From positions 62,001 to 126,000 of the forward strand of contig CACXPH010000001.1 of the NCBI GenBank assembly GCA_902769535.1: 64,000 bases of DNA, written 5' to 3'. A program made the position numbers and the translations under genes. This DNA is from an uncultured Bacteroidales bacterium. Its GTDB lineage: Bacteria; Bacteroidota; Bacteroidia; Bacteroidales; Paludibacteraceae. The notes below the pieces were generated by a model. It was not told the DNA's origin and searched no databases. It saw nothing but the letters and a program-made list of their open reading frames with translations. Shown here in pieces: positions 1 through 63,268 of this stretch. Position 1 is the stretch's first letter. Every line of letters begins with the position of its first letter.

Positions 1-964
1 CGACATGAAGTACGGCGAACTGCCGAAGGGTTTGCTGCTCTTCCATAAGTACCGTGACGGTGCGCGCACACCGGCGTTGGAGCACCTCGTAGAAGGCGCA
101 CAATACTGCATAGCTCCTGCTAAAGAAGGCGAGAAGCCGACCGTTTATCTGCATTTTACCGTCAGCCATGACCACCTGCCGCTCTTCCGTCAGCACATCG
201 CAGAGAACCTACCTAAGTTCGAGGACAAATACGGCGTGAAGTATGACGTGACGTTCAGTGAGCAGCTGCCGAGTACGGATACGATAGCAGCCAATCCGGA
301 CGGTACGCCGTTCAGGACGAAGGACGGTAAGTTGCTCTTCCGTCCGGGTGGACACGGAGCGCTCATCGAGAACCTCAACCAGCAGGACGCAGATATCGTC
401 TTCATCAAGAATATTGACAACGTCGTGCCTGATCGCCTCAAGAAAGATACGATCCGTTACAAACAGATCCTCGCGGGTGTGCTCGTGACCGAGCAGAAAC
501 GCGTGTTTGAAGCGCTGAAGGATCCGAACCTGAGTGATGAAGAGCGTGCTAAACTGAACCGTCCTATCCGTGTATGCGGCGTGGTGAAGAACACGGGCGA
601 ACCCGGTGGTGGTCCGTTCCTCGTTCGTGACGAAGACGGTTCGATTAGTTGCCAGATCCTCGAGTCCACGCAAATCAGCGACCCGGAGTTGATGAAGCAG
701 AGTACGCACTTCAATCCGGTGGATCTCGTATGCGCTATTCGCGATTATGAAGGCAAGCCGTTTGACCTGCCCAAGTACGTCGATCCGAAGACCGGCTTCA
801 TCTCCAATAAGAGTAAGGACGGTAAGGAACTGTTAGCACTCGAGTTACCGGGTCTGTGGAACGGCGCGATGGCAAAATGGAACACCATCTTCGTAGAAGT
901 GCCGGTAAGCACCTTCAATCCGGTGAAGACCGTGAACGACTTGCTCCGCGAGCAGCACCAGTAA
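1..964 (+). CDS. DUF4301 family protein (C-terminal part)
   Basis: This is the last 320 or so codons of a gene that begins before the window; the frame is open through base 1, so the first ATG at base 5 is probably internal. The sequence matches what I know of the Bacteroidota DUF4301 family, including the characteristic block FRPGGHGALIENLN followed by DADIVFIKNIDNVVPD (about residues 110-145 of the visible part). Family members are about 500 residues, so roughly a third is missing. There is no signal peptide or membrane segment in the visible part. The function is unknown; the glycine-rich block resembles the nucleotide-sugar handling loops of sugar-phosphate nucleotidyltransferases, but that is inference. 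The stop codon lies inside a heptamer array and is followed by a strong hairpin terminator shared with the convergent DUF5020 gene. Confidence 0.8.
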   Translation, partial: DMKYGELPKGLLLFHKYRDGARTPALEHLVEGAQYCIAPAKEGEKPTVYLHFTVSHDHLPLFRQHIAENLPKFEDKYGVKYDVTFSEQLPSTDTIAANPDGTPFRTKDGKLLFRPGGHGALIENLNQQDADIVFIKNIDNVVPDRLKKDTIRYKQILAGVLVTEQKRVFEALKDPNLSDEERAKLNRPIRVCGVVKNTGEPGGGPFLVRDEDGSISCQILESTQISDPELMKQSTHFNPVDLVCAIRDYEGKPFDLPKYVDPKTGFISNKSKDGKELLALELPGLWNGAMAKWNTIFVEVPVSTFNPVKTVNDLLREQHQ

Positions 965-996
965 AGTTTAAAGTTGAAAGTTTAAAGTTTAAAGAA
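962..996. repeat. Heptamer array, TAAAGTT core
   Basis: Five consecutive 7-bp units (TAAAGTT, TAAAGTT, GAAAGTT, TAAAGTT, TAAAGAA). The first unit supplies the TAA stop of the DUF4301 gene. The same core recurs in frame at the start of batE and at the end of mfd. Confidence 0.85.
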
Positions 997-1023
997 ATAA
1001 GCGCCTCGAAAGGGGCGCTTATT
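996..1023. terminator. Bidirectional hairpin terminator
   Basis: Arms AATAAGCGCC and GGCGCTTATT are perfectly complementary around a short loop. The hairpin sits between convergent genes and has A/T-rich flanks on both sides, so it can serve both strands. Confidence 0.8.
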
Positions 1024-1025
1024 GT

Positions 1026-1799: not shown

Positions 1800-1804
1800 C
1801 TTTA
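1777..1804. repeat. Heptamer array at a start codon, NNNRGGT core
   Basis: Read on the minus strand, the units are TAAAGGT, GAAAGGT, TATAGGT and TAACGCT. They include the stop codon of the upstream gene and the GTG start of the DUF5020 gene. The same units occur in frame near the end of the DAHP synthase-chorismate mutase gene (8312-8353). Confidence 0.75.
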
Positions 1805-3148: not shown

Positions 3149-3154
3149 ATGCTT

Positions 3155-5872: not shown

Positions 5873-5886
5873 AAGATGATTGTTTG

Positions 5887-6690: not shown

Positions 6691-6715
6691 AGAATAACTT
6701 ACGTTAAATTTGCCG

Positions 6716-6746
6716 CAAAGATACAACTTTTTTTTTATATATGCAA
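6716..6746 (-). promoter_or_regulatory. Promoter of the nuclease-receptor operon
   Basis: On the minus strand, TTG (6746-6744), a 20-nt spacer and TATCTTTG (6723-6716) match the Bacteroidota sigma-ABfr consensus exactly. A start site about 7 nt on leaves a leader of under 20 nt. Confidence 0.75.
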
Positions 6747-6781
6747 GCGCGCACGTATTTTTTCCTTCTTTTCTACCTAAT

Positions 6782-6841
6782 CGTATGTTTATCCTATGTT
6801 TAACCTATGTTTATGCTATCTTTATCCTATGATTATGCTAT
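6782..6841. repeat. 11-bp tandem array, CCTATGTTTAT
   Basis: Five to six units of 11 bp (CGTATGTTTAT, CCTATGTTTAA, CCTATGTTTAT, GCTATCTTTAT, CCTATGATTAT, then a decayed unit) lie between two divergent promoters. The array is preceded by CCTAAT. The same array with the same preceding word occurs at 21975 and 39623. Confidence 0.85.
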
Positions 6842-6866
6842 TAGACTCTAAAAAATCGACATTTTC

Positions 6867-7353: not shown

Positions 7354-7388
7354 TTATCAGTTAGGGGTTATCGGTTATCAGTTATGGG
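7354..7388. repeat. Heptamer array overlapping a start codon, TTATCAG core
   Basis: Five units: TTATCAG, TTAGGGG, TTATCGG, TTATCAG, TTATGGG. The last unit contains the ATG of the next gene. The same core is found in frame twice in mfd and once in dxr. Confidence 0.85.
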
Positions 7389-8427
7389 TAACAGGAAATA
7401 CCTGGTGCTTGGTCCGTGCGCGGCGGAGAGTCGTGAACAGGTGATGGAGACCGCGTCTCTTGTTTGTGATTTGAGATTTCAAATTTCAAATTTGATTTTC
7501 CGTGCGGGCGTATGGAAACCGCGTACGCGTCCGGACACGTTCCAAGGCATAGGCGAAGAAGGCTTGGGTTGGTTGCAGGAGGTCAAGGAACGCTTCGGCA
7601 TCCCAGTTGCGACCGAAGTAGCCACGCCGGAACACGTAGAGGCGGCATTAAAGGCCGGTATCGACTACCTATGGATAGGCGCACGAAGCTCTGCAAATCC
7701 GATTGTTGTACAATCGATTTGCTCCGCTATTTTAGATTTAAGATTGAAGATTGAAGATTTTAGATTGAAGGGCGTATTGATAAAGAATCCGGTGAATGCG
7801 GACGCAGCATTATGGTTAGGGAATATAGAGAGGCTGGAAGCAACAGGAATACCTGTTGCAGCAGTACACAGAGGTTGCAATCACCAGCCGTGTTGGGCAA
7901 TGGCGCATAAGGTGCGTTTGGCACGACCGGACATACCTATGCTGCTCGATCCGAGTCATATGAGCGGAGACGCGAAGGTGGTGCCGATGTTGATGGGCAA
8001 AGTGGCTGAGTTGGGATTGGATGGCGCGATGGTAGAAGTGCACGCTCATCCGGAGCAAGCGCTTTCCGACAGAAAGCAGCAGATAAGGCCGGATGGCTTA
8101 ATGAGCGCACTGAAAGTGCTCAATGATGCGACAAAGTCGCCTAATGATGAGCCTACGGCTCCTAATGACACCGAACTCAACTGGTTACGGGCAGAGATAG
8201 ATGAGTTGGATGAGACCTTATGGGACACTATCGCCGCGCGTATGGAGGTGAGCAAGCGGATAGGCGAATGGAAGAAAGCGCATGGCGTGGCTCCGCTCCA
8301 ACCGGAACGAGTAAAGGTTATAGGTGAGAGGTTAAAGGTTATAGGAGAAAGATTGCATCTTTCTGAACAATTTATGCAGAAGATGTGGGAAATCATACAT
8401 GAACAAAGTTTGAATGAGCAATATTAA
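7384..8427 (+). CDS. DAHP synthase / chorismate mutase fusion
   Basis: A 347-residue bifunctional enzyme of the shikimate pathway. Residues 1-245 are a KDO8P-synthase-like DAHP synthase (LGPCAAES, FRAGVWKPRTRP, ATEVATPEHV, IKNPVNAD, LLDPSHMSGD, KQQIRP), condensing phosphoenolpyruvate and erythrose-4-phosphate. Residues 265-345 are an AroQ-type chorismate mutase (LRAEIDELDETLWDTIAARMEVSKRIGEWKK broken by its usual pattern). Against the Bacteroides homologue I remember, four repeat or hairpin elements add or replace residues: CDLRFQISNL, LDLRLKIEDFRLKG, the linker ALKVLNDATKSPNDEPTAPND, and RVKVIGERLKVIGER. The stretch after HRG is shortened and lacks the usual Tyr and Arg-Asn. It could still be active, but this should be tested. 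It overlaps the next gene by 14 bp. Confidence 0.92.
   Translation: MGNRKYLVLGPCAAESREQVMETASLVCDLRFQISNLIFRAGVWKPRTRPDTFQGIGEEGLGWLQEVKERFGIPVATEVATPEHVEAALKAGIDYLWIGARSSANPIVVQSICSAILDLRLKIEDFRLKGVLIKNPVNADAALWLGNIERLEATGIPVAAVHRGCNHQPCWAMAHKVRLARPDIPMLLDPSHMSGDAKVVPMLMGKVAELGLDGAMVEVHAHPEQALSDRKQQIRPDGLMSALKVLNDATKSPNDEPTAPNDTELNWLRAEIDELDETLWDTIAARMEVSKRIGEWKKAHGVAPLQPERVKVIGERLKVIGERLHLSEQFMQKMWEIIHEQSLNEQY
7468..7502. repeat. In-frame heptamer array, GATTTSA core
   Basis: Units GATTTGA, GATTTCA, AATTTCA, AATTTGA, TTTTCCG inside the DAHP synthase, encoding about LRFQISNLIF between helix 1 and FRAG. The homologue appears about 4 residues shorter here. Confidence 0.8.
7693..7722. repeat. 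In-frame long hairpin
   Basis: Arms GCAAATC-C-GATTGT and ACAATC-GATTTGC pair over 13 bp with one bulged C, within codons for the conserved SANPIVVQSIC segment. Confidence 0.65.
7733..7770. repeat. In-frame heptamer array, AAGATTG core
   Basis: Units TAGATTT, AAGATTG, AAGATTG, AAGATTT, TAGATTG. They encode about DLRLKIEDFRLK, an apparent insertion of about 9 residues before IKNPVN. The same core forms the intergenic array at 12056-12156. Confidence 0.85.
7840..7859. repeat. In-frame perfect hairpin
   Basis: GCAACAGG, loop AATA, CCTGTTGC: an 8-bp perfect stem within codons for EATGIPVA. Confidence 0.65.
8085..8168. repeat. In-frame array of about 21-nt hairpins with AATGAT spacers
   Basis: Four hairpins in a row: AAGGCC/GGCTT, AGCGCACT/AGTGCT, GCGAC/GTCGC and GAGCC/GGCTC, each with a 3-4 base loop and separated by AATG or AATGAT. 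They encode the Asn-Asp punctuated linker between the DAHP synthase and chorismate mutase domains. The stems differ but pairing is kept. The GAGCC-TAC-GGCTC unit is found again in mfd. Confidence 0.85.
8312..8353. repeat. In-frame heptamer array, NANAGGT core
   Basis: Six units: TAAAGGT, TATAGGT, GAGAGGT, TAAAGGT, TATAGGA, GAAAGAT. They encode the duplicated peptide VKVIGERLKVIGER in the last helices of chorismate mutase, with no apparent change of length against the homologue. Confidence 0.85.
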
Positions 8428-12044: not shown

Positions 12045-12055
12045 TACGACCATTT

Positions 12056-12156
12056 AAGATTTATGATTTCAGATTTATGATTTCAGATTTATGATTTCAG
12101 ATTTATGATTTCAGATTTATGATTTAAGATTTAAGATTTTAGATTTTAGATTTACA
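12056..12156. repeat. Long heptamer array, AGATTTA/TGATTTC
   Basis: About fourteen 7-bp units (alternating AGATTTA and TGATTTC, then AGATTTA variants) fill the gap between convergent genes. It is the longest heptamer array in the window. Confidence 0.9.
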
Positions 12157-12205: not shown

Positions 12206-15200
12206 TTACTGGCAAATGATCTTACCGGACTTCAGCTTCTTGGCGGTATCACCCTTAAACATCTGGATGATGGTCTTATCGCCGTACAAGAAAGTGTAGA
12301 AGTAGAGTTGACCCGGGTTCACATCAATCACCAGTCCGGAACGGCTGTCGGTAATATCGTTCAGACGTGCACCGAGTTCGAGATCATCCACTATCCGGGC
12401 ATCGTTCGGATCAGCCGTCGGGATGAGTTCATAGACGAGGTTGCGTCCGTTCTCATCCATGAGCAGGAAGTACACATCCTTACGGATCGTACCGACGAAC
12501 AGTTGGTTCGTACCCGGCAGGCGCTTGATCACGACGTCATTGCCGGTCGGCTCGATTGACTCATTGATCGAGGAGATAGCGAAGTAAACGTAATAACGCA
12601 TTACCGAGCCGTCTGCGGCCGTACAGATGATCATACAGGTGTCACCGGCCGAAACCTCACGGATAGATACCTCTGCATTCTCCGATTCGGGGATCGCATC
12701 TACCACAGGCGTGGTTGTCGCGCCCTCGCGCAGATAATAGGTATAGAAGGTCACATTGCTGTCGAAGCCTTCGATCGTATCACCGTCCAGGGTAATGAGG
12801 CTCAGCAGGCAGTTGCTATCCTTACCGATGATCTGCATGATGATATACGTGATCTCGGTCTTACCGTCTTGCGCTACGACACGGATGAAGAGCGTTCCTT
12901 CTTCGTTCTGCGTGATGGTATAGGTAGCCAACTTATCGCTAAGCAGCACCTCTACATCGGCCGCAGTGAAGAAGTCCGTAACGTCCGAACCGTACGGATG
13001 CACGTAGGTATATTCGGTCTGTGACGGCAGGAAGCCGGCCAATTCTTCGTCCTTGAGGAGGATATTCACCAGCGTAGCATCCGTCGGCTTGAGGAAATGG
13101 AAGATGAGCGAATAGACAGCCTGGTCTTCACCGTTCGGAGCCGTAACCGTGATATCTACGCGCACATCACCGTTATCCAAGAGGTAGTACGTTGTATCGG
13201 TCTTTTGCAGCGCATCGTACTTAACGGTCTCTATGGTAGGCAGTTGCTCGCTGATCGTCATCGTAGCGGAGTACGACAGATTGATCGTATAACTGAACTC
13301 CTCCGGACGGAACGGGAACTGAGTTGCAGGCAGCACCTCTCCGTTCGCGTCGGTCAGCACAATATCACGCAGTGTGGTGATAGCGGACAAGAGACGTACG
13401 AAGGTGAGCGTATAGGTTTGATGCGAGCCATCCTCTGCGGTCACTACAATCGTCACGACGTCACTGTCAATGCTGATCTCAACAACCTGAATATCTTCTT
13501 TCTTGAGCACCGTGATAACCGGGACGGAAGCCTCCGCATCGATTTCCACCTTATAGACGAAGCGCTCTGCATCGTAGTTAGCCAGCGGCTTACCGGCCAG
13601 GTAGATCATGTTGAGCGTAGCCTCGGAAGATTTCTGAACCGGATAGTGGATCGTGTAGGTACGCGAAGCGCCGGTGGCAGCTGTGACAGTCACGATAGAC
13701 TTGTAACCCAGCGACTTGCCGGAAATCGAGTCACGTACCTGCGAAACGAGAACGGTCTGGTACTCATCACCGCTGATATACTCTACCAACGGTACTTGAC
13801 CATCGAGTTCAGCGGCATACGCAGCGGTGAGCTCGTAGTAGTACTCAAGCGTGTTGGCATTGAAGCCGGCGAGCTGTTTTTGATCCACGAAGATCATCTG
13901 GAGCGTATCAATAGCCGACTTGAGAATCGTGTACGAAACGGTGTAGAAATTCTTCTTGCCGCTCTCCGAAGTAACAACAATCTGACGGATGAGTTTATCT
14001 GCTGCGAACTCAACAGTATCCATTGTTACGGTCTGCCATTCATCGGCTTCCTCCCAACTAATGTCAGGGAAGGCCGCAGTACCTACCGGCAACGAGAGCG
14101 CGTAGTACTTATGGGTCGGTTGGTAGCCCTCCAGCGGCTTACCATCCTGGTAGATCATCGCAAGCGTATCGGCATCGGACTGCGTAAAGCGGAATACTAC
14201 TACATAGGTATTCTCACGCACACTCTTGTCTTCAGCTTGTACCTTGATCGTTGCCTGCAGTTTATTGAGGTCCATTTCGATCGGCAGGATCGTCTGAACT
14301 TCTTCGTCTTTCTGTGCCACTACTTCCGGCAGGGAGTGCGTGCCAACCGGCAGGGTTACCTGGTAGAAGTAATAGTTCGGGTCGAAGCTTGCCAACGGTT
14401 CACCGTCCAGGAAGATCATCGACAGGTTAGCGTTCTTCGACAGAGGCACTACGAAATGGAGCACGTACTGGTTAGTAGAGTTATCCATTGCGTGTACGGT
14501 GAGCAGAACAGAGTCACCGACCTGCTTGATATCCACGGTCTGACCGTCCATTTTCAGTTGTGCACTTACTTCCGGCAGAACAGTCGTTCCCGACGGCAGG
14601 TAGATCACATAGGAGTTCTGACCCGGGTCAAACGCAAGGTCCTTGTTGATAGCACGCTCGAAATCAACGAATTTCTGACCATCCAATAGGATATTCGCCA
14701 AGGTAGCGTCGTTGGACTGGTTCTCAATATAGATATCCACGATATAATCGGAGGACGAACCGTCTTCAGCCGTCACACGTAAGGTATCACTATACTGGTG
14801 ACCTGCCTTGATCACACCGATGATCTTCTGTACCGTCTGGAAACGGTCGTTGGATGTATAATCGATCTCGATACCGTCGGTCTTAAGCGAAATCGAGTAA
14901 TAGTGACGTCCCGACTCAAAGTGATCCAACGCTTCTCCGTTGACAATAATACCGGAGAGGTCGGAGCAGTGACTCTTCTCGGAGGTAATGGTCAAGTCAT
15001 AGTACTTGGTATCCGTCTTATCTTCGCTTACCACAGTGATATTCGTCGGATTGCCCAGCGTACCCGGTTCCACAGTGACGGTCTGTCCCTGATGACCGGC
15101 GATATAGGTAACGTTCGGTAATTGCGGTTCAGTACGCTTCACACCGTCAGCCGGTAACGGCAGGGTAACGGTATACGACGTAGTAGCCGGATCGAAACCG

Positions 15201-21745: not shown

Positions 21746-21809
21746 ATTAATTATTTTATTAAATTTATTACGTTTTTGGGCCTTAAAAAGGCGCAATTTT
21801 TATCGGGTG

Positions 21810-21974: not shown

Positions 21975-22007
21975 CGTATGTTTATGCTATGTATGTCCTA
22001 TGTTTGT
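21975..22007. repeat. 11-bp tandem array, second copy
   Basis: CGTATGTTTAT, GCTATGTATGT, CCTATGTTTGT, then GCTTATTCGAA, preceded by CCTAAT. Same family and leading word as 6782 and 39623, and again between divergent promoters. Confidence 0.85.
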
Positions 22008-22047
22008 GCTTATTCGAACAAAAAAATGTAACTTTTTTGTCAAAATA

Positions 22048-22079
22048 TTTGCATATTCCAAAAAAATGTTGTACCTTTG
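22048..22079 (+). promoter_or_regulatory. Promoter of the Ig-like protein gene
   Basis: TTTG (22048-22051), 20-nt spacer, TACCTTTG (22072-22079): full Bacteroidota consensus. The leader is about 58 nt. Confidence 0.8.
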
Positions 22080-22144
22080 CAACGCAAAGGTGTAGACTTC
22101 GCAAAACACAAACAACTATACTATTAACCAAAAATCGATTTCTT

Positions 22145-28388: not shown

Positions 28389-30133
<1,745 letters not shown>

Positions 30134-30140
<7 letters not shown>

Positions 30141-38333: not shown

Positions 38334-38360
38334 AAATCTTAAATCTCAAATCACAAATAC
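38326..38360. repeat. Heptamer array over the rimP start
   Basis: Plus-strand units GAAATCA, TAAATCT, TAAATCT, CAAATCA, CAAATAC. The rimP ATG (38333-38331) spans the first two units. Same core as the array at 12056. Confidence 0.85.
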
Positions 38361-39506: not shown

Positions 39507-39550
39507 ATCTTTGGGCAATCCTTGGGTGATCTTTGGGCGATCCTTGGGCA
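39507..39550. repeat. 11-bp tandem array, ATCYTTGGGCR
   Basis: Four exact 11-bp units: ATCTTTGGGCA, ATCCTTGGGTG, ATCTTTGGGCG, ATCCTTGGGCA. A loose GATAGGT-type array follows at about 39564-39600. The rest of the gene-free stretch 39428-39751 holds the array at 39623, an AGAACA/TGTTCT inverted repeat near 39674-39702, and no gene that I can see. Confidence 0.85.
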
Positions 39551-39622
39551 AGCCTCAATGTTTGATAGGTAATTGGTAGGATTTAGGTAGGTGATAGGTA
39601 CGCTTTGGAACCGTAACCTAAG

Positions 39623-39666
39623 CGTATGTTTAAGGTATGTTTGTCCTATGTTTGTGCTATGTTTGT
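39623..39666. repeat. 11-bp tandem array, third copy of CCTATGTTTGT family
   Basis: CGTATGTTTAA, GGTATGTTTGT, CCTATGTTTGT, GCTATGTTTGT, then GCTTATCAGAA, preceded by CCTAAG. Confidence 0.85.
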
Positions 39667-39751
39667 GCTTATCAGAACACGACCATCACGGGATCATGTT
39701 CTAAGGAGAAGCTAAGGAAGATATTAGCAGAGCCAGAAATACAGACATCTA

Positions 39752-47800: not shown

Positions 47801-48349
47801 GAAGGAGGGGCTCAAGACACATCCTTCCCTTTAGGGGAGGAACGAGGAGAGGCTCACCTCTGGTGCCAGGACGCACAGTTAGAGACGGATATCGCGGTGT
47901 GCTTCCCGACGGATTATATCGAGAATATATCCGAGCGGATCACGCTGTACCGGGAACTGGACACGCTGCGCAGCGAAGAGCAGTTGCTGGACTTCCGCAA
48001 GAAACTCATCGACCGTTTCGGTGTGTTGCCGGAACCGGCAGAGGAGTTGTTAGACGTTGTACGGTTGCGGTGGATCTGCTGCCGTTTGGGTGTGGAGAAG
48101 ATACTGCTCAAAGGCGAGCGAATGACGATGTATTTCGTGCAACACAAAGATGCGTACTGGCAATCGGAGATGTTCGGAAACTTGGTTCAATACGCCGTGA
48201 CACGACCCGAGCGTTGCTCGTTGCACGAAGAGCGAGACAAGAAAGGCATACCGACCGGAAGGCGGTATATCACGATAACGAATGTGCGTTCGATAGGAGG
48301 AGCTATCACACTCCTGTCGAAAGTTGAGAGTGGAAAGTTTATAGTTTAG
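44885..48349 (+). CDS. mfd: Transcription-repair coupling factor Mfd
   Basis: A 1154-residue ATP-dependent translocase that removes stalled RNA polymerase and recruits UvrA. Order: UvrB-like module (about 1-330), RNA-polymerase-interacting domain (about 430-500, INQLQIGDYVVHSDHGIAKF), helicase with GDVGFGKTE (about 600) and DEEQ (about 702), ADLHQLRGRVGRS, and the TRCF C-terminal domain. I choose GTG 44885: MGIEELEILFAQHP aligns with the Bacteroides start MNIQELQNLYALHP, and earlier codons fall within or before the transcription start. Eight repeat or hairpin elements are in frame; all avoid helicase motifs. KdsB follows 5 nt after the stop. Confidence 0.95.
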   Translation: MGIEELEILFAQHPEIGLLNKELRKGKGTHVLLSCLHASARALTLAQVKRPQFVIFDNEESARYMYSDLKSLMSAAKPLNDEPTAPNERNKLLNDVLFFPHSQKRRAVDEAAQIQRTECLTALSNQQSVVSSQIIVTYPEAVAEPVPAKEDLERRSLKLRVNDSVQLSVISGQLADLGFERVDFVFQPGQYAIRGGILDIYSYSHDNPYRLDFFGDEIDSIREFDIEDQLSKSRVENAEIVGKPNPDNVLWTATGSPIGQSPSPIKGRENVSTIVEYLSDETVWVSNDWQIVRFKLDGLGVLGNLGSIEERTTIEINEKSSFATHSKITFETQPQPVFHKQFDILTDDLKRHVEEGYKVYILAEQQKQLDRLAAIMSATLNDEMSEPTALNDGMFIGINATLHEGFVDKGLKICCYTDHQIFERYHRVTMASENARRGKAIITLREINQLQIGDYVVHSDHGIAKFGGLVTTPVNGKPQEMIKLNYRDGANVFVSIHNLHRISKYKGREGSEPTIARLGSGQWERLKERTKDKVKDIARDLIRLYATRKQQKGFAYSPDGYMQHELEASFLYEDTPDQAKATADVKRDLESPMPMDRLVCGDVGFGKTEVAMRAAFKVATDGKQVAVLVPTTVLALQHYNTFRERMANMPVRIEYLSRLKSAKETKEILEDLAAGKIDILIGTHKLVGKSVKWHDLGLLIIDEEQKFGVAVKEKLKSLRANVDVLTLTATPIPRTLQFSLLGARDLSIMTTPPPNRYPVQTELITSDDEDIIKEAIELEMGRNGQVFIVNNRIEMLPRIEHKIHKLVPEARIIIAHGQLPAGEMEERLEAFINYDYDILLSTTIIESGVDIPNVNTILIFGANHYGLADLHQLRGRVGRSNRKAYCYLIAPEKELLTDDARRRLEALSTFAELGAGFNLAMQDLDIRGAGNLLGSEQSGFIADLGYETYQRILNEAVEELREEMGAYPNPSLEGGAQDTSFPLGEERGEAHLWCQDAQLETDIAVCFPTDYIENISERITLYRELDTLRSEEQLLDFRKKLIDRFGVLPEPAEELLDVVRLRWICCRLGVEKILLKGERMTMYFVQHKDAYWQSEMFGNLVQYAVTRPERCSLHEERDKKGIPTGRRYITITNVRSIGGAITLLSKVESGKFIV
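45083..45170. repeat. In-frame hairpin array 1 in mfd
   Basis: Four hairpins: AGCGAC/GTCGCT, GCGGC/GCCGC, GAGC/GCTC and GCAAC/GTTGC, with AATG or AATGAT between them. It encodes the insert SLMSAAKPLNDEPTAPNERN and a few more residues, which is about 20 residues longer than the Bacteroides protein here. Confidence 0.88.
45256..45290. repeat. In-frame heptamer array 1 in mfd, NNNTCAG core
   Basis: Units TAATCAG, CAGTCAG, TTGTCAG, CAGTCAG, ATCATCG, encoding NQQSVVSSQII just before the conserved VTYPEA; preceded by a GTGCT/AGCAC hairpin at about 45238-45252. Confidence 0.85.
45376..45410. repeat. In-frame heptamer array 2 in mfd, NNNTCAG core
   Basis: Units CGTTCAG, TTGTCAG, TTATCAG, TGGTCAG, TTGGCGG, encoding VQLSVISGQLAD. 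The Bacteroides protein has the same number of residues here, so this is replacement, not insertion. Confidence 0.85.
45667..45689. repeat. In-frame hairpin in mfd
   Basis: CCCTTC and GAAGGG arms around an 11-base loop, encoding PSPIKGRE. Confidence 0.6.
45770..45805. repeat. In-frame CTAG nonamer array in mfd
   Basis: Units CTAGACGGT, CTGGGAGTC, CTAGGAAAC, CTAGGTAGC, encoding LDGLGVLGNLGS. Confidence 0.8.
46007..46062. repeat. In-frame hairpin array 2 in mfd
   Basis: GAGCG-CTA-CGCTC and GAGCC-TAC-GGCTC with AATGATG spacers, encoding SATLNDEMSEPTALND. The second hairpin and its spacers match the one at 8149-8161 in the DAHP synthase gene. Confidence 0.88.
47791..47842. repeat. In-frame G/C-rich double hairpin in mfd
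   Basis: CCCCTCC/GGAGGGG (47791-47810) and an imperfect CCTTCCC/GGGGAGG (about 47822-47840), encoding NPSLEGGAQDTSFPLGEE. REP-like sequences of this type are familiar between genes of Bacteroidota. Confidence 0.75.
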
Positions 48350-48353
48350 AGAA
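48319..48353. repeat. Heptamer array at the end of mfd
   Basis: Units GAAAGTT, GAGAGTG, GAAAGTT, TATAGTT, TAGAGAA. They encode the last eight or so residues of Mfd and its TAG stop, and run to the kdsB start. Confidence 0.88.
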
Positions 48354-48354: not shown

Positions 48355-49092
48355 ATGAAATTTATTGGAATCATACCGGCGCGGTACGCGTCCACCCGTT
48401 TCCCGGGCAAACCGCTCGCGGAGATAGGCGGCAAGACCGTCATTCGTCGAGTGTATGAGCAGGCGAACAAAGCCTTAGACACCATTGTGGTGGCTACCGA
48501 CGACGAGCGTATCTACGATGACGTGGAGTCCTTTAGCGGTAAGGTGGTCATGACGCGTCCGGATCATAAGTGCGGTACGGACCGTTGTCTGGAGGCCTAC
48601 GAGGCCATCACCACACCGTACTGGCGCGAGCAGAACGATACCGACACGGTGATCATCAATATCCAAGGCGACGAACCGTTCATCCAGCCTGAGCAGATAG
48701 AAGCGCTCATGAAATGCTTTGACAACGAGCAGACACAGATCGCTACGCTTGTTCGGCCGTTCACCCCGGAGGAGGATATTGAGAATCCCAACAGTCCGAA
48801 AGTGAATTGGGACACCGTGACCGGAGAGGCGAAGCTCTTCTCCCGCAAGGCGATTAAGGCATCGGACGGTAAGTACTACCATCACATCGGCATCTATGCG
48901 TATCGCGCAGACGTGCTGGCACAGATCACGAAGTTACCGCAGTCGCCGCTGGAGATCAAAGAGCGGCTCGAGCAGTTGAGGTGGTTAGAGAACGGTTATC
49001 GGATCTTCGTAGGCTTGACAGATACCCAGACGATCGGTATCGACACGCCGGAGGACCTGGAGAAAGCTATTGAGTGGTACAAGCACTCGTAA
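48355..49092 (+). CDS. kdsB: CMP-KDO synthetase
   Basis: A 245-residue cytidylyltransferase activating KDO for lipopolysaccharide inner core. Signature IIPARYASTRFPGKPL (5-20), VATDDERIYD, TRPDHKCGTDR, NIQGDEPFI and HHIGIYAYR are all present. Five nt after mfd, so probably cotranscribed. The last codon and stop lie at the edge of an octamer array. Confident. Confidence 0.96.
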   Translation: MKFIGIIPARYASTRFPGKPLAEIGGKTVIRRVYEQANKALDTIVVATDDERIYDDVESFSGKVVMTRPDHKCGTDRCLEAYEAITTPYWREQNDTDTVIINIQGDEPFIQPEQIEALMKCFDNEQTQIATLVRPFTPEEDIENPNSPKVNWDTVTGEAKLFSRKAIKASDGKYYHHIGIYAYRADVLAQITKLPQSPLEIKERLEQLRWLENGYRIFVGLTDTQTIGIDTPEDLEKAIEWYKHS

Positions 49093-49111
49093 TAACGAAA
49101 TAACGAAAAAA
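49088..49111. repeat. Octamer array at the kdsB stop
   Basis: CGTAATAA, CGAAATAA, CGAAAAAA; the first unit supplies the stop codon. Confidence 0.7.
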
Positions 49112-49891: not shown

Positions 49892-51751
49892 ATGGATAAA
49901 AACACTTGGATCGGCTTCATTTTGATAGCCGCAATTTTCGTTGGGTTCATGTTTATCCAGCGTCCGTCGAAAGCGGAACTGGCAGAACGCCAACGTGTAC
50001 AGGACTCGATTGCTCTCGTTCAGGCAGCACAGGCCGAGGCACAACGCGTCTCGGATTCGATTAGTGCTGCGCTGGCGACTGAAGAGGCAGAGATTGCTAC
50101 GGTTGAGGAGTCTAAACCCGAAGAGCAATGGATTACCCTGCAAAACGAGAAAGTACGTCTGACGCTCTCTACCTATGGAGGAACTATCCAGCGCGCAGAG
50201 TTGCTTGAGTACCACGCATCGGGAGACAGCGTGAATCCACTCTGCCTGTTCCGTGCCGATGAGGCATCGTTCGGTCTGACGCTCATCACGATCAACAACC
50301 GTATTCTGCAGACGTCTAACCTCATTTTCGAACCGGTAACGTGTGACGAGCCTAACAAGGCCATCCTGCGTCTGCCGTCACAGACAGAAGATGCATGGTT
50401 GGATTTCGTGTACGAGTTGTCGGACGATTACATGGTACATCTGACACTTGTGCCGCATAACCTGCAGAACGTACTGGCGCAGAATATCAACTCGCTCGAA
50501 CTCCAATGGCGTCAACTCATCCCGCAACAGGAACAGGGACGTAAGTTCGAAGAGCGCTACGCGCAGTTGCAATATATGCTCGTAGGCGGCGAGATGGAGA
50601 AGCTCAGCGAGAGCAAGGACGACAGTCAGAAAGAGAACACGCGTGTCAAATGGATCGGTTACAAAGACCAGTTCTTCTCAACCGTGCTGATCGCGGACGA
50701 TGCGTTCTCCGGTTCGCAGTTCAGTTCCACCGTACAAAGCAAACACTCGGGGTATATCAAAGAGTACAGCACCCATACATCGGTGCCGTTTGACTTGACG
50801 GGTAAGACCGAGACGGGTTTCCGTTTCTATTTCGGTCCGAACCATTACCACACGCTTAAGGCGTACGACGAGGGAGTGGACAAAGAAGACCGTCTGCATC
50901 TGAACAAACTCGTGCCGCTGGGATGGAAGATCGTGAGCTGGATCAACGTGATATTGGTTATTCCGATGTTCGACCTGTTCTCCAGTTGGGGACTGCACAT
51001 CGGTATCGTGATCTTGCTCATGACGCTGGTCATCAAACTTATCATCCTGCCGTTCGTCTTCGTATCGTATAAATCGAGCGCGAAGATGAAAGCACTCAAG
51101 CCGCAGATCGATGAGATCAATGCGAAATTCCCGGCAGAAAAGATGCAGGAACGTCAGCAGGCGACCATGCAACTGTACCAGCAGGCGGGTGTCAATCCGA
51201 TGAGCGGTTGCTTACCGATGTTGTTCCAGTTCCCGGTATTGATGGCTATGTTCTGGTTCTTGCCGACAGCTATTGAGTTACGTGGCAAATCGCTGCTTTG
51301 GGCACCGGACTTATCGACCTACGATGCGATCTTCCATTGGGGCTTTAATATTCCGCTGTTAGGCGACCACCTGTCCTTGTTCTGCTTGCTGATGACGATA
51401 GCTAACTTCGGTTACACCTACGTCACGATGCAGTCGCAAGCGACGGATCCGAACATGAAGTTCATGAAGTACATGATGTACGCGATGCCGTTGATGTTCC
51501 TCTTTATCTTCAACGACTACGCAGCCGGTCTGAGTTATTACTACCTCCTGTCACTGTTCATCACCATTCTCCAGACGATGATTTTCCGTTGGACGCTGGA
51601 TGAGAAGAAACTGCTGGCAGAGATGGAAGCCAATAAAAAGAAAAAAGCCGGCAAACCTAAGTCCGGCTTCATGCAACGCTTGGAAAATATGCAGCGTGAG
51701 CAGCAACGCTTAGCTCGCGAGCAAGCCAAAGCGGCTAACAAGCGACGCTAA
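49892..51751 (+). CDS. yidC: Membrane protein insertase YidC
   Basis: A 619-residue inner-membrane insertase. N-terminal helix (6-24), a Gln/Ala-rich coiled stretch, a periplasmic beta domain (about 75-330), then the conserved core: helix at about 355-390, LIILPFVFVSYKSSAKMKALKP in part, NPMSGCLPMLFQFPVLMAMFWF in part, the following helices, and a Lys/Arg-rich tail for ribosome binding. Typical of Bacteroidota YidC. The final 42 bp overlap a convergent hypothetical gene. Confidence 0.96.
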   Translation: MDKNTWIGFILIAAIFVGFMFIQRPSKAELAERQRVQDSIALVQAAQAEAQRVSDSISAALATEEAEIATVEESKPEEQWITLQNEKVRLTLSTYGGTIQRAELLEYHASGDSVNPLCLFRADEASFGLTLITINNRILQTSNLIFEPVTCDEPNKAILRLPSQTEDAWLDFVYELSDDYMVHLTLVPHNLQNVLAQNINSLELQWRQLIPQQEQGRKFEERYAQLQYMLVGGEMEKLSESKDDSQKENTRVKWIGYKDQFFSTVLIADDAFSGSQFSSTVQSKHSGYIKEYSTHTSVPFDLTGKTETGFRFYFGPNHYHTLKAYDEGVDKEDRLHLNKLVPLGWKIVSWINVILVIPMFDLFSSWGLHIGIVILLMTLVIKLIILPFVFVSYKSSAKMKALKPQIDEINAKFPAEKMQERQQATMQLYQQAGVNPMSGCLPMLFQFPVLMAMFWFLPTAIELRGKSLLWAPDLSTYDAIFHWGFNIPLLGDHLSLFCLLMTIANFGYTYVTMQSQATDPNMKFMKYMMYAMPLMFLFIFNDYAAGLSYYYLLSLFITILQTMIFRWTLDEKKLLAEMEANKKKKAGKPKSGFMQRLENMQREQQRLAREQAKAANKRR

Positions 51752-52207
51752 CTCGTTATCCACCAGCGCTTGTCCCTCTTCGGACAGCGTCACGCCGTTT
51801 TGCTCGAGGAGTTGCTCGAAATGAGCACACTCGAGCATCGGCGAGGTGATATCGATAATATGCACACATTGCGTGGCAGCAAGGCGGAAGAGTGCCAAGT
51901 TATACACGGCGTGCATATTACGCAGACGCGCCACATTGCCGCCTAACCAGTACAGGATGTTCTTTCGTTCCTGCATGGACATACCTCGCGTGATAAAGGC
52001 GAAATAGCGGTTTTCGTCTATGATAGGCAAGCTAACCAACACGGGTTCTTGTCCTTGCGCGCGTACCTGCGCGATCTTATTTATATATTGCGCCTTATAG
52101 GCAACTAAATCCATTTTGGGTTCGTGGTGATCAGCAGGATTAGAAGCAATCGCCTTCCAATCGAACTGTAAACCGCTCTCGGGTTGAATGATAATCGTCT
52201 TGTCCAT
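51710..52207 (-). CDS. Hypothetical protein
   Basis: A 165-residue soluble protein that I do not recognise. Residues about 80-125 (ERKNILYWLGGNVARLRNMH, then VYNLALFRLAATQCVHIIDI) look like a conserved helical core. The codon use and clean start (MDKTIIIQPESG) argue for a real gene even though its 3' end overlaps yidC. A heptamer array lies just upstream. Confidence 0.6.
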   Translation of the reverse strand: MDKTIIIQPESGLQFDWKAIASNPADHHEPKMDLVAYKAQYINKIAQVRAQGQEPVLVSLPIIDENRYFAFITRGMSMQERKNILYWLGGNVARLRNMHAVYNLALFRLAATQCVHIIDITSPMLECAHFEQLLEQNGVTLSEEGQALVDNELASLVSRFGLLAS

Positions 52208-52213: not shown

Positions 52214-52248
52214 TAATGTTTAATGTTTAACGTTTAGTGTTTGGGATT
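52214..52248. repeat. Heptamer array, TAATGTT core
   Basis: TAATGTT, TAATGTT, TAACGTT, TAGTGTT, TGGGATT between the hypothetical gene and the 31-aa gene. Confidence 0.85.
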
Positions 52249-55741: not shown

Positions 55742-55756
55742 GTTTACTTCATTTTT

Positions 55757-55788
55757 AGTAATTTCGTAATTACGTAATTACGTAATTT
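55757..55788. repeat. Octamer array, CGTAATTA
   Basis: AGTAATTT, CGTAATTA, CGTAATTA, CGTAATTT between the acetyltransferase and DUF4293 genes. The last base belongs to the stop codon of the acetyltransferase. Confidence 0.85.
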
Positions 55789-56306: not shown

Positions 56307-56314
56307 ATTACGTA

Positions 56315-59769: not shown

Positions 59770-59773
59770 GTGC

Positions 59774-61207
59774 TTAGAAGAACAGTTTTAGTATATCATT
59801 TCCGTTCGCCAGGATGAGCAAGGCGATGAGGATCCAGAAACCGATGGTATTGGCTTTCTCGAGGAACTTATCGCTGGGTTTACGACGCGTGATCATCTCC
59901 ACGAGCAGGAAGAGGATATATCCGCCGTCCAATGCCGGGATCGGCAGGAAGTTCATGAAGGCTAAGATGATACTCAAGAAGCCGGTCATGTGCCAGAAGG
60001 CGTACCAACTCCAGTAAGCCGGGAACATCGAACCAATCGCACCGAAGCCGCCGAGCGACTGCGCTCCTTCTTTGGTGAAGACGAGGCGGAACTGCTTGAC
60101 GTACATCGCCAGGATATCCCATCCGTATTTGATTCCGGCCGGAATCGATTGGAAGAAGTTATAATCGGTGTGTTCGAACTCGAAGATATTCCATCGGATC
60201 GAGACACCCATTAGGGCTTGGTCTCCGATGAACATATGCGCAGTCTGCAGTTCACCTGCACGGTAGTAGTCGACCGTCACGGAATCGCACGCATGGCGCT
60301 GTAACTCTTCGGTCATGAGGACGTTACACGGCGTGGGCACACCGCCTACGGCTACGATGCTATCACCTTTCTGCAGGCCGGCATAGTAGGCAGCATTATC
60401 CGGGAAGACCGAATCAATGACGCAGGGGATCCATTCGGATACAAGCACAAAACGTTTCTTCTTGTAGGTCTTATCTGCCCTACCCTTCTCGCGCTCGGCC
60501 TTGTCAAAGGCGTTCTGCTGCGCCAGATAGCGCGTACCGAGGTCTTCGGACATCACTAACTGCACGGTGTCGTTTCCGCGCAGCACCGTCACGTTGCGCT
60601 TGCCCTCGATGATGATGGACTGAACGGCGTCACTTAAGGTCTCAGGTTCCTGCCCGTCGATGAACAGGATCTTATCTTGCTGCGCAAAACCTTCGTCCAC
60701 CATGATCTGCGAGTAGTACAGACCGGTGTTCACGTTACGCAGCGGCAGGGTGTCCTGACCCCAGTGCCAGAGGAGCATCATGAAGATGATGAGGGCACCG
60801 ATGAAGTTGACGAGGATACCACCGAGGATGATGAGCATGCGTTGCCAAGCGGGCTTGGAGCGGAACTCCCAGGCTTGCGGTTCGGACGCCAAGTCATCGG
60901 TCGAATGCGTCTCATCGACCATACCGGCAATCGCACAGTAACCGCCGAGCGGCAACCATCCGAGACCCCAAGTTGTGGACTCCGGGTGCTTGGACCATTC
61001 GTCATCCTCTTCGTCGTTCTTACAGAAGAACTTAAAATGCCATTTGCCGTCGAATTTCTTCATCTGCGCGAGGCTGAACCAAGGGTTGAAGAACAAGTAG
61101 AACTTCTCCACACGCACATGGAAAATCTTGGCGAACGTGAAATGTCCGAGCTCGTGAATGAACACGAGGAAGGACAATGCTAATATCAATTGTATTGCTT
61201 GAATCAT
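59774..61207 (-). CDS. rseP: Site-2 protease RseP
   Basis: A 477-residue intramembrane zinc protease. HELGH at residues 18-22 gives two zinc ligands and the catalytic Glu; the third lies in NFLPIPALDGG (Asp about 427). Two PDZ-like regions lie between the membrane parts (FVLVSEWIPCVIDSVFPDNAAYYAG in part). It cleaves anti-sigma factors and signal-peptide remnants. Follows dxr, the common Bacteroidota order. Confidence 0.95.
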   Translation of the reverse strand: MIQAIQLILALSFLVFIHELGHFTFAKIFHVRVEKFYLFFNPWFSLAQMKKFDGKWHFKFFCKNDEEDDEWSKHPESTTWGLGWLPLGGYCAIAGMVDETHSTDDLASEPQAWEFRSKPAWQRMLIILGGILVNFIGALIIFMMLLWHWGQDTLPLRNVNTGLYYSQIMVDEGFAQQDKILFIDGQEPETLSDAVQSIIIEGKRNVTVLRGNDTVQLVMSEDLGTRYLAQQNAFDKAEREKGRADKTYKKKRFVLVSEWIPCVIDSVFPDNAAYYAGLQKGDSIVAVGGVPTPCNVLMTEELQRHACDSVTVDYYRAGELQTAHMFIGDQALMGVSIRWNIFEFEHTDYNFFQSIPAGIKYGWDILAMYVKQFRLVFTKEGAQSLGGFGAIGSMFPAYWSWYAFWHMTGFLSIILAFMNFLPIPALDGGYILFLLVEMITRRKPSDKFLEKANTIGFWILIALLILANGNDILKLFF

Positions 61208-61217
61208 AAATCTTTTT

Positions 61218-61249
61218 CGTTATTACGTAATTACGTTATTACGACAGTT
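61218..61249. repeat. Octamer array at the dxr stop
   Basis: CGTTATTA, CGTAATTA, CGTTATTA, CGACAGTT (plus strand). The TAA stop of dxr is in the third unit. Confidence 0.85.
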
Positions 61250-62423
61250 GTTGTTCCGCGAGGCGGCGAGCCGCAGTATCCGTCGCCACGTAATCTTCGT
61301 AGGTCGGTTTGGCGATGAAGGCGGCTTTGACCATCGTCTGAGCGATGACGTCACTCATCTGCAGGAAGCCGCAGCGTCCTTCGCGGAAGGCGAGGTTCAC
61401 CACTTCATTCGCCGCATTGAGTACACACGGTATATTGCCTCCGCGCCGCATCGCTTCGTAGGCCAGGCCTAAGTTCGGGAAGCGGTTGAGGTCCGGTTGC
61501 TCGAAGGTCAGGTCCTTGAGTGCGAACAGATCCGCACGCGGGAAATCGGATGCCAGACGTTCCGGGAAAGAGAGGGCGTATTGGATAGGCAGCCGCATGT
61601 CCGGTGCACCGAGTTGGGCCTTGATAGCGCCGTCCGTGAACTGCACGGCCGAATGGACGATCGACTGCGGGTGCACCAGCACCTGTATCTTCTCCACGGG
61701 CACGCCGAAGAGCCACTTGGCTTCGATCACCTCGAAGCCTTTGTTCATCATCGAGGCGGAGTCAATCGTGATCTTCGCCCCCATCTCCCAGTTCGGGTGC
61801 TTGAGGGCATCTGCGGCGGTGACAGTTTTCATCTGCTCGAGGCTGAAGGTGCGGAACGGTCCTCCGCTGGCGGTCAGCAATATCTTCTCTATCTCGCTGC
61901 GGTCTTCGCCTACGAGGGATTGGAAGATCGCACTGTGCTCGCTGTCCACCGGCAGTATCGGCGCATGGTGCTGCAGCGCTAGGTCACAGATGATCTCACC
62001 CGCTACGACCAGCGTCTCTTTGTTCGCGAGCGCGATAGTCTTACCGGCTTTGATAGCTTCGATAGTCGGTCGCAGTCCGGCGTAGCCCACCATAGCGGCC
62101 ACCACCACATCGACAGACGGCATCGTCACCACTTCGGCTATCGAATCCGCACCGGCCCATACTTTTCCCTGATAACTGATAGCTGACAACTGATCACTCA
62201 ATGCCCCATACAGGCTCTCGTCGGCGATGCAGACCACCTCAGGTTTGAACTCCTTCGCCTGTTCCACCAGTTTGTCGATGCTCCTGTGCGCGCACAGCGC
62301 ATATACACTATATCTATCCGGGTACGCACGCACAATATCGAGCGTCTGCGTACCTATCGAACCGGTGCTCCCTAAGATCGCTAACTCTTTCACTCGTTCA
62401 TTCGTTAACTCGTTACTTACCAT
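61239..62423 (-). CDS. dxr: 1-deoxy-D-xylulose-5-phosphate reductoisomerase
   Basis: A 394-residue enzyme of the MEP isoprenoid pathway: NADPH site LAILGSTGSIGTQTLDI, LANKETLVVAGE, PVDSEHSAIFQ, ASGGPFRT, HPNWEMGAKITID, SMMNKGFEVIEA, HPQSIVHS. I start it at 62423 since the longer frame has 14 unrelated residues before MVSNELTN. Residues 2-13 come from an octamer array and residues about 76-87 (SDQLSAISYQG) from a heptamer array; the latter replaces rather than lengthens the Bacteroides sequence. Overlaps the M23 gene by 7 bp. Confidence 0.95.
   Translation of the reverse strand: MVSNELTNERVKELAILGSTGSIGTQTLDIVRAYPDRYSVYALCAHRSIDKLVEQAKEFKPEVVCIADESLYGALSDQLSAISYQGKVWAGADSIAEVVTMPSVDVVVAAMVGYAGLRPTIEAIKAGKTIALANKETLVVAGEIICDLALQHHAPILPVDSEHSAIFQSLVGEDRSEIEKILLTASGGPFRTFSLEQMKTVTAADALKHPNWEMGAKITIDSASMMNKGFEVIEAKWLFGVPVEKIQVLVHPQSIVHSAVQFTDGAIKAQLGAPDMRLPIQYALSFPERLASDFPRADLFALKDLTFEQPDLNRFPNLGLAYEAMRRGGNIPCVLNAANEVVNLAFREGRCGFLQMSDVIAQTMVKAAFIAKPTYEDYVATDTAARRLAEQQLS
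62169..62203. repeat. In-frame heptamer array in dxr, NNNTCAG core
   Basis: Minus-strand units TGATCAG, TTGTCAG, CTATCAG, TTATCAG, encoding DQLSAISYQ. Same family as the two arrays in mfd and the one before the DAHP synthase. Confidence 0.88.
62384..62415. repeat. In-frame octamer array at the start of dxr
   Basis: Minus-strand units TAACGAGT, TAACGAAT, GAACGAGT, GAAAGAGT encode NELTNERVKEL, immediately after the ATG. Confidence 0.8.
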
Positions 62424-63226
62424 GCCATCACCTCTTCGAAATTCATGAACTGTCCGGATTCCCATAACTCGAATACCAAGTCATGCTCGCCGTCCATCAT
62501 CGCGATGGATTCTCCGGCTTCTACGAGAGCACCTTGTGCCTTAAGCGGTTTCGTTACGTGACGGTAGATAGCCGTCAGCGTACCGGCCTGCAGGACGATG
62601 CAGAACGTGTTATCTTCCAATCGCTCTGAACTCACGAGCGTTCCGCGTGCGACAGCCAGTACGTTCTCGTTCTTGGCGGTACGGATGGTCGTTCCATACA
62701 CACGCAGATCGGGCCGAGCGGCACTCATCACGGCACCGCGTACCGGTCGGCATAGTTGCCGTACCGAACGTGTGGATGCGTTATCGAAGAGCAACAAACG
62801 GTCGCGTTCCCGCTGCTCGTATTGGGACATGAAGGTCTCGGTAGCTTCGCTGGGTTCTGCCACGAGTTGCGCTTGCGTCACACGCTGCAGGCTATCCAGA
62901 TTCTGCACGCTGTCCAGATCAATCGTTCCGGCTGTGACTTGCTTGATCACGTCCAGGTACTGACGTTGGAGTATCAGGCTGGTCTGCAGTGAATCGACAC
63001 GCGCAGACTCCTGAATGAGTTGCTGGCGCAGACTGGCGCTGTAACCCGGTAGGATATTACGAATAGGCGTATAGACGATGAGCACGGACAGCAAGACGAT
63101 GAGTGCCACGATGGTGATCGTGATCACGCTAATCGCGCCCAACAGACTCACGCGGAAATGAAACACCTCGCGCAGCGTCAGGTCGTCCAGCATCGCCAAA
63201 CGATATTTATGTCTTTTTTCTGCCAT
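62417..63226 (-). CDS. Degenerate M23 (LytM-like) membrane protein
   Basis: A 269-residue protein with one N-terminal membrane helix (about 28-52), a coiled-coil spacer (about 60-135) and an M23-like domain (about 160-269, PVRGAVMSAARPD to DLVFELWESGQFMNFEE). The zinc ligands of LytM enzymes are missing: the HxxxD motif is replaced by residues around VYGTTI and the HxH by DLVFEL. It therefore cannot be a normal endopeptidase and may activate amidases or act structurally, like other degenerate LytM factors. Confidence 0.8.
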   Translation of the reverse strand: MAEKRHKYRLAMLDDLTLREVFHFRVSLLGAISVITITIVALIVLLSVLIVYTPIRNILPGYSASLRQQLIQESARVDSLQTSLILQRQYLDVIKQVTAGTIDLDSVQNLDSLQRVTQAQLVAEPSEATETFMSQYEQRERDRLLLFDNASTRSVRQLCRPVRGAVMSAARPDLRVYGTTIRTAKNENVLAVARGTLVSSERLEDNTFCIVLQAGTLTAIYRHVTKPLKAQGALVEAGESIAMMDGEHDLVFELWESGQFMNFEEVMAW

Positions 63227-63236
63227 TTTCTTTCTT

Positions 63237-63268
63237 TTCGAGATCGCGTGGTCACGAGATCACGATAG
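63237..63268. repeat. Octamer array at the fumarase stop
   Basis: TTCGAGAT, CGCGTGGT, CACGAGAT, CACGATAG; the TGA of the fumarase gene spans the last two units. Same core as the in-frame arrays in batB-C and batD. Confidence 0.8.

Follow-up and report, generated by a model that had tools for sequence, protein, structure and literature searches.

Short tandem arrays of several periods seem to arise, spread and turn over unusually fast in a ruminant-gut genus of Paludibacteraceae

A 64,000-nucleotide stretch of DNA from an uncultured member of the Bacteroidales (Paludibacteraceae; assembly GCA_902769535.1, contig CACXPH010000001.1, positions 62,001 to 126,000), referred to here as the window, carries several dozen short tandem arrays, most of which have units of 7, 8, 9 or 11 bp. 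A first reading of the window from its sequence alone had proposed that an active process generates these arrays. The proposal is supported by comparison with relatives, in which the array sites are polymorphic both between congeneric species and within pairs of genomes that are 90.7–97% identical, and in this ruminant-gut genus the repeats apparently form, spread and give way to others at an unusually high rate. The window genome is a draft (1.89 Mb in 39 contigs, 84.85% complete) from a GTDB genus that we take to be RF16, and its closest named relatives are mainly ruminant-gut assemblies labelled Paludibacteraceae or Bacteroidales. The genus set comprised 178 genomes, one per species, and the genomes compared within the genus are drafts, each assembled into many contigs.

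The window was scanned with Tandem Repeats Finder (score of at least 30) and, separately, for periods 5–12 with arrays merged (score of at least 9). The first scan gave 66 rows, including TAAAGTT at 962, ATCCTATGTTT at 6780, TAAAGGT at 8312, ATTTAAG at 12052–12154 (14.7 units), TCACGAGA at 31521, ATCCTTGGGCG at 39507, TCAGTTG at 45379 and TTTCGTAA at 55754. The second gave 38 arrays, of which 30 have a period of 7, 8, 9 or 11 (14, 6, 6 and 4 arrays, respectively). The observation of more than 20 arrays in the sequence-only reading is confirmed. In a chance test on the window (score 12; 20 dinucleotide-preserving shuffles), 9, 5, 6 and 3 arrays of periods 7, 8, 9 and 11 were observed, compared with shuffle means of 0, 0, 0.05 and 0. 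Random sequence of the same composition thus yields almost no arrays, and the window arrays are longer than expected by chance, with units in the 5–11 nt range of bacterial simple sequence repeats.

A wider array sample of 1,548,971 bp covered 37 genomes: 34 belong to the genus, among them the window's own with 437,821 bp, and the other three are named close relatives of unchecked genus. Its 534 arrays fall into discrete periods: 246 have period 7, 56 period 8, 41 period 9, 47 period 11, 36 period 14 and 26 period 21, and periods 6, 10 and 12 are rare (9, 7 and 3 arrays). The units also fall into classes. Measured against GC-matched random intergenic words, the 7-mers carry 4.83 versus at most 4.08 bits, the 8-mers 5.58 versus 4.49 bits and the 11-mers 6.25 versus 4.92 bits, and the period-9 units are also above the null. 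The class consensus is approximately AWWKKTK for the heptamers and CGWRATNA for the octamers, and only 100 distinct heptamer units occur among the 246 arrays, where 191 would be expected at random. The fixed cores assigned to each family at first reading are accordingly better described as parts of broader degenerate classes, and the four heptamer cores may belong to a single class.

The multi-period set extends across the genus for periods 7, 8 and 11. Period 9 is largely repetition at the protein level, since 32 of its 41 arrays are coding and 12 of the 41 are a segment of yidC, and it was dropped as a clear DNA family. Of the six 9 bp arrays in the window, two are conserved coding sequence of the usual kind: 51454–51487 in yidC, with few differences across 19 aligned rows (two genomes appearing twice), and 36192–36232 in an Ala-rich stretch of IF-2 (three relatives).

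The breadth of the heptamer class was gauged by counting positions at which three units match AWWKKTK, which gives rough densities because overlapping positions within one array are counted repeatedly. The window genome (92 positions in 1.89 Mb) has, by table reading, the highest such density in samples of 296 genomes from the phylum and 197 from the order, one of these breadth samples holding only two other genomes of the window's order. Within the genus it is unexceptional, as matches occur in 78 of 81 genomes at 0 to 314 positions each. A reversed-pattern control was dropped since the class is almost its own mirror. Among Bacteroidales loci L039–L104 (L103 excluded), 30 that we labelled as ruminant from their record titles hold 66 heptamer arrays in 566 kb and the 35 others hold 12 in 632 kb (11.7 versus 1.9 per 100 kb), a labelling that is confounded with taxonomy.

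Turnover between species was followed at 13 of the window's array sites, for each of which the orthologous interval was extracted from syntenic relatives. An array was present in 73 of 236 comparisons, junctions contributing 67 (of 191) and coding sequence six (of 45). At 200 random array-free windows, which are mostly coding, the count was 45 of 4736; the fairer control, a set of five junction intervals free of arrays, gave 7 of 91, and one of these intervals (51752–51760) lies within an overlapping open reading frame (ORF). The occupied slots held an array of another period in 46 cases, of the same period but another unit in 18 and of the same unit in nine, so that 64 of the 73 differ in unit or period. 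Between species, then, change is mostly to another unit or period, and the same sites are reused by different families.

The octamer array TTACGTAA fills an operon junction (55754–55787) at which 15 of 26 relatives have an array, always of another period (units such as ATTCAGT, TTTCAAT and TTTACAC; the eight listed are heptamers), and 11 have none. At the junction occupied by the octamer array CGAAATAA (49088–49111), arrays are found in 18 of 34 relatives; in 13 of these the period differs, four have the same unit and one has another octamer. A weak heptamer array between mfd and the next gene (48316–48351) has a counterpart in 12 of 35 relatives, the unit being identical in two; the TAATGTT array at 52214–52242, directly upstream of the minus-strand ORF 51710–52207, in six of 28; and the octamer array TTACGTTA at 61215–61243, between dxr (61239–62465) and ORF 59774–61207, in six of 23. 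Eight relatives have arrays of period 7, 8 or 10 at the junction where the window has the weak octamer array CGAGATCA (63239–63265), and none of the four relatives compared has an array at the junction of the AAATCTC heptamers (38327–38358).

The first reading had also placed the same families in frame within genes, and arrays inside mfd and dxr were compared with relatives. The TCAGTTG array in mfd (45379–45404) coincides with an array in two of 22 relatives, and the CTGATAA array inside dxr (62169–62193), which contains TAACTGA, with a heptamer array in two of 21; the octamer array ACTCGTTA at the N-terminal end of the dxr ORF (62384–62415), counted as a junction, has a counterpart in one of 20. 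For three further arrays the comparison is with a single relative, G021. In place of the AGGCTAG heptamers at 26172–26196 (ORF 25606–26493) it has GAAAGTC heptamers, in place of the octamer array TCACGAGA at 31521–31549 (ORF 30134–31996) a stretch that scores as a period-7 array, and near the AAAGTTG heptamers at 32001–32032 (start of ORF 31993–32760) an 8-mer array. The first two of these ORFs had earlier been called DUF58 and BatD; neither has a match in NCBIfam.

Within Mfd, the linker between the motifs EIVG and IVDYL (45600–45712, plus strand, in the window) holds in-frame pieces that differ between species. These include heptamer arrays (GGTTACG, ATTGGAC, AGTCAAA, ACAATGT and GAGCCAA) and 9-mer arrays (AATGATGCA); some species have inserts of another kind, and some lack an array. 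In a pair that is 97% identical, the linker of one member has ATTGGAC heptamers and that of the other has 9-mers; the Mfd linker of G176/G029 shows such a change, a heptamer facing a 9 bp repeat. The window has in this slot an in-frame element of about 84 bp (45611–45695) that is dispersed, with matches in 16 of 61 genus genomes and up to ten in each. A copy in the same mfd slot of G035 is 94% identical over 100 bp, compared with about 77% for the other aligned DNA of that genome. Rickettsia palindromic elements (RPE) are inserted in frame in tolerant parts of conserved proteins; the 84 bp element, dispersed and in frame, resembles them in these respects, whereas the tandem arrays differ in not being single palindromic elements. 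Another dispersed-looking insert, of the TGTAGGACCG / GCTAACGCTG type, lies in the same Mfd slot in three species (loci L007, L008 and L029), and similar pieces are found at a divergent segment of a close pair.

Turnover was also followed between close relatives. Unique 14-mers served to align six genome pairs whose compared stretches are 90.7–97% identical, and segments of more than 1200 bp were skipped. An array in one or both members is touched by 30 of the 50 strongly divergent segments; for the arrays of one genome only, the count is 19 of 50, compared with a mean of 2.9 and a maximum of 10 in 500 for the shift null. The other 20 segments contain no array, and arrays are therefore not the sole hotspot. 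The pair G175/G131 (97% identical) shows two exchanges of arrays, each with 100 bp flanks that are at least 95% identical. At 53709 of the joined G175 stretch, TTACCAA stands opposite CTTTCAA in G131, the flanks being 0.96 and 0.95 identical over 100 bp and 0.94 and 0.98 over 300 bp. At 39657, AAATCCTAAATTTG stands opposite AGTTTAA and the adjoining C-terminal codons are altered too. In the pair G176/G029, a heptamer array lies opposite an octamer array at the junction equivalent to window 49088. Changes in unit number are common in close pairs (for example, at 47848 in G175/G131).

Near-identical units are in excess within genomes. Among unlinked arrays (more than 3 kb apart) from 15 genomes, pairs of similarity above 0.8 make up 5.7% within versus 2.6% between genomes for 7-mers, 11.0% versus 1.7% for 8-mers and 6.4% versus 0.7% for 11-mers (permutation p of 0.0005 each); when the two most homogeneous genomes are left out, p rises to 0.005 for 8-mers and stays at 0.0005 for 11-mers. 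Dosage of single units is uneven. Across the 178 genomes, G067 alone accounts for 40 of the 65 positions of (AATGGTT)x3 and 11 other genomes share the remaining 25, and (ATTTGTG)x3 is thinly spread over 54; for AATYACC, the count in a set of 33 genomes varies between 0 and 82 positions. CTTTCAA, the G131 unit at 53709, is listed on nine contigs of G131, and its 12 positions in G175 may represent few arrays. This unequal dosage, in which long arrays are counted several times, resembles that of a dispersed element. Reversed-pattern controls were discarded for CTTTCAA, which has the same mirror fault as AWWKKTK, and for AATYACC, whose reversal matches G067's own AATGGTT family. By eye, the flanks of eight AATGGTT arrays in G067 have nothing constant, except that a short palindromic piece, GGACATAGTCC, adjoins the arrays at two places (L208, 8465–9961).

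The arrays are concentrated at gene junctions. Genes were called crudely, as ATG-initiated ORFs of at least 80 codons chosen greedily, so that the coding class takes in some false ORFs; by these calls the sample from the window's own genome has 198 arrays per 100 kb of intergenic and 15 per 100 kb of coding DNA, and arrays lie in 48 of 145 gaps of 25–400 bp. In co-directional gaps, 64% of 198 arrays start between -20 and +10 bp from the upstream stop codon, a nearness that is partly forced because the junctions are short. This is the junction placement of the TAACTGA type, here seen for the whole array set rather than for the TAACTGA unit. The G-rich strand tends to be the sense strand for 7-mers (79:37, p of 0.0001) and 11-mers (20:7, p of 0.02), with 18:9 (p of 0.12) for 8-mers; an early orientation count of TMAHC in sense versus antisense (7:15 in the window's genome, 6:11 in near relatives and 8:8 in others) is superseded by these counts. 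Inside ORFs there are 125 heptamer arrays, which have no strand preference (57:62). By a stricter rule (ORFs longer than 600 bp) 100 of the 246 heptamer arrays are coding, and these are enriched for four units (58 of 100 versus 57 of 146, p of 0.004), which hints at 21 bp steps and fits a multi-unit event.

The 11-mers are placed differently, being coding in only 4 of 54 cases and between divergent genes in 18 of 54, compared with 8 of 282 heptamer arrays, a position that suggests a possible promoter-related role. The four 11-mer arrays of the window may be operator-like sites. They are ATCCTATGTTT (5.6 units, 6780–6841), TATGTTTATGC (21977–22010, between divergent ORFs and overlapping the start of ORF 21989–24364), ATCYTTGGGCR (39507–39555) and CTATGTTTGTG (39624–39669).

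To account for these observations we tentatively favour, with a confidence that falls somewhat short of even, a model in which array families persist as copy lineages through both slippage and copying between sites. Units would be multiplied and trimmed by replication slippage, which must act because unit number varies. Occasionally, an array elsewhere in the genome would supply the sequence that replaces or starts the array at a given site, probably through template switching at short homologies (ectopic gene conversion) in the course of replication or repair. Selection would then purge most coding insertions, and the survivors would lie at operon junctions, often from the upstream stop codon onwards, and in tolerant protein linkers where length is constrained to keep the frame. 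The periods would, on this model, be inherited with the lineages rather than set by a polymerase rule. Template-switch copying is favoured because slippage alone does not explain the gap at period 10, the exchange of units and periods within a 97% pair or the concentration of one unit in one genome.

Several observations weigh against this model. No array is present at the given window site in 163 of the 236 relative comparisons, and several arrays are unchanged between the members of close pairs. Of the 12 divergent segments with arrays in both members, we count three with a clear unit change (at 53709, at 39657 and, in G176/G029, in the Mfd linker); the others differ in length or have related units (for example, G133/G127 at 11873 and the octamers of G092/RUG372). 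The within-genome excess for 7-mers weakens to p of 0.006 without the two most homogeneous genomes, and the mean 7-mer similarity within and between genomes does not differ significantly (0.572 versus 0.565, p of 0.15; in another test, also negative, 0.567 versus 0.56). Sequence-biased slippage could be an alternative source of the recurring units.

This last point leads to purely local slippage, a real possibility, in which a replication enzyme of this lineage would tend to duplicate 7, 8, 9 or 11 bp stretches of a preferred base pattern. Arrays would then originate independently at each site and be lost quickly, with neutral spacers refilled all the time. Heptamers are reported to be the commonest long simple repeats in many bacteria, for which polymerase slippage has been proposed (Mrazek 2007, as cited in PMC4679880 and PMC4692102); where both members of a close pair have arrays, they differ more often in unit number than in the unit itself; and some identical units, such as ATTTGTG, recur thinly across the genus. 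However, slippage alone does not predict that period 10 is depleted between 9 and 11, swaps within a 97% pair would require deletion and regrowth at the same spot, and single 7 bp steps would break the frame in coding DNA, where the four-unit enrichment hints at 21 bp steps. Nor does it predict that one unit can concentrate in one genome. A further and unlikely explanation goes beyond occasional copying and regards the arrays as tiny mobile repeat cassettes, discrete families, each with its own rule of period and unit, that would copy themselves into shared permissive slots at operon junctions and in enzyme linkers through a dedicated trans-acting activity, displace each other within a few percent of divergence and sweep single genomes.

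It is rather improbable that the junction arrays are selected regulatory or translational elements, for instance termination/reinitiation spacers or protein-binding sites, with the 11-mers perhaps operator-like. The placement near upstream stop codons, the G bias of the sense strand and the avoidance of coding DNA by 11-mers, often between divergent genes, are consistent with function, and a translational role has been proposed for TAACTGA (PMC4679880). Sister species, however, lack the array or have another family at the same junction, heptamer arrays are numerous inside ORFs without strand preference, and the short junctions partly force the closeness to stop codons. Import of old alleles by homologous recombination from other species of the genus is very unlikely as the source of the differing arrays. 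The 84 bp Mfd insert, far more similar in G035 than the rest of the aligned DNA, and the codons changed along with the array at G175 39657 both suggest such import, but the flanks at 53709 are at about the pair's own identity and leave little room for an imported tract, and the origin of the families would still need another explanation.

RNA-templated repeat addition by a telomerase-like reverse transcriptase is highly improbable. DRT10 makes tandem 9 nt repeat DNA from a non-coding RNA (PMC12632851), and one unit can dominate one genome. In a search with RVT_1, however, the draft genome of the window itself (84.85% complete) was negative, and 23 of 81 genus genomes were positive, compared with 3 of 14 control genomes. 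Matches were present in the array-dense genomes G131 and G029 but lacking in the array-dense G074, G043, G033 and G067, and the many different units in each genome would need many templates. The search thus does not support templating by reverse transcriptase. Chance or assembly artefact is extremely improbable. The genomes compared are multi-contig drafts, but shuffled sequence is nearly array-free, and dozens of assemblies contain such arrays, their flanking genes being intact and the Mfd linker remaining in frame.

Heptamer arrays at junctions, and sometimes in ORFs, have been described before, which qualifies the novelty claimed in the sequence-only reading. TAACTGA repeats are reported from Beggiatoaceae, cyanobacteria and five Bacteroidetes including Paludibacter (MacGregor 2015; PMC4679880). 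In Microcystis, Gramella, Aequorivita and Elizabethkingia they are intermixed with other heptamers. Between relatives the same junction may be without repeats or vary in steps of 7 nt, and mobility was considered (PMC4679880). The arrays described here share the heptamer unit, the mostly low copy number, the position mostly at junctions and often over the upstream stop codon, and the occurrence of some in ORFs (PMC4679880). In the window, TAACTGA-type units themselves are confined to the mfd (TCAGTTA at 45386) and dxr (TAACTGA at 62173) arrays, and most other heptamer arrays differ. Our arrays also differ in that related heptamers seldom occur as repeats in the Beggiatoa genome examined, that the TAACTGA cases in ORFs are mainly at protein ends, and that the accessible sections of the TAACTGA report describe neither octamer or 11-mer families nor family exchange between near-identical genomes (PMC4679880). 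A single dominant unit as in Beggiatoa is not seen here, given the 100 distinct heptamers and the additional octamers and 11-mers.

The GGGAATC repeats of Xanthomonas and GGGGAYT repeats of Nostoc are likewise degenerate, intergenic heptamers, often with four units; in two related species most of them occupy the gap between the same genes and vary there in length and sequence (PMC4692102). Unlike our arrays they form a single G-rich, quadruplex-prone family per organism, and the accessible parts of that report mention neither family exchange nor other periods (PMC4692102). AWWKKTK has no fixed G-run, although some units contain one (for example, AACCCGT; 11 of 246). Species-specific satellites of prokaryotes, such as those of Chloroflexus aurantiacus, are also tandem families scattered in one genome with transposition inferred, but they come from other taxa and no interchange at shared slots is described in the available text (PMC6749651). 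The heptamer bias is shared with cyanobacterial short tandemly repeated repetitive sequences (STRR) and with long simple sequence repeats of 5–11 nt (Mrazek 2007), as told by later papers. DRT10 resembles our case in making short-unit tandem DNA and differs in that its product is a protein-primed antiviral cDNA (PMC12632851); several array-rich genomes here have no reverse-transcriptase match.

As far as the accessible texts go, intergenic heptamer arrays, mixed heptamers, stop-codon placement, cases in ORFs, variation in presence and length, and inferred satellite transposition were thus known before (PMC4679880, PMC4692102, PMC4060949, PMC6749651, PMC12632851, PMC2996958). A literature search outside subscription papers found no description, in the texts accessible, of interchangeable multi-period families at shared sites, and found arrays in Paludibacteraceae only as TAACTGA in Paludibacter. 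What looks new is the switching of families, the coexistence of several periods and the in-frame slots within conserved enzymes. The literature that we could consult leaves the origin of heptamer repeats in bacteria unsettled, slippage at each site being the usual proposal. With 178 genomes, many arrays in each, discrete periods and exchanges between near-identical genomes, that origin becomes testable. If arrays copy in trans they would be a minimal kind of selfish DNA; if they do not, the rules of unit and period point to a specific property of a polymerase. The process also alters conserved enzymes (such as Mfd and Dxr) in frame, which is a route to new protein sequence.

Further heptamer arrays of the window are TAAAGTT (4.7 units, 962–994), which starts at the end of an ORF stopping at 964; three within ORF 7384–8427, at 7463–7493, 7729–7766 (ATTTAAG/ATTGAAG) and 8312–8345 (TAAAGGT); and the longest, of ATTTNAG type (14.7 units, 12052–12154), which lies between convergent ORFs. 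The latter adjoins the minus-strand ORF 12206–21796, which has 3196 codons and no NCBIfam match. Two low-complexity stretches stand apart from these arrays. One, at 29865–30010, is a CAG/CAA tract. The other, a long 9 bp periodic stretch at 32771–33001, lies past the ORF end at 32760 and inside the minus-strand ORF 32699–33952, and G021 contains a similar stretch.

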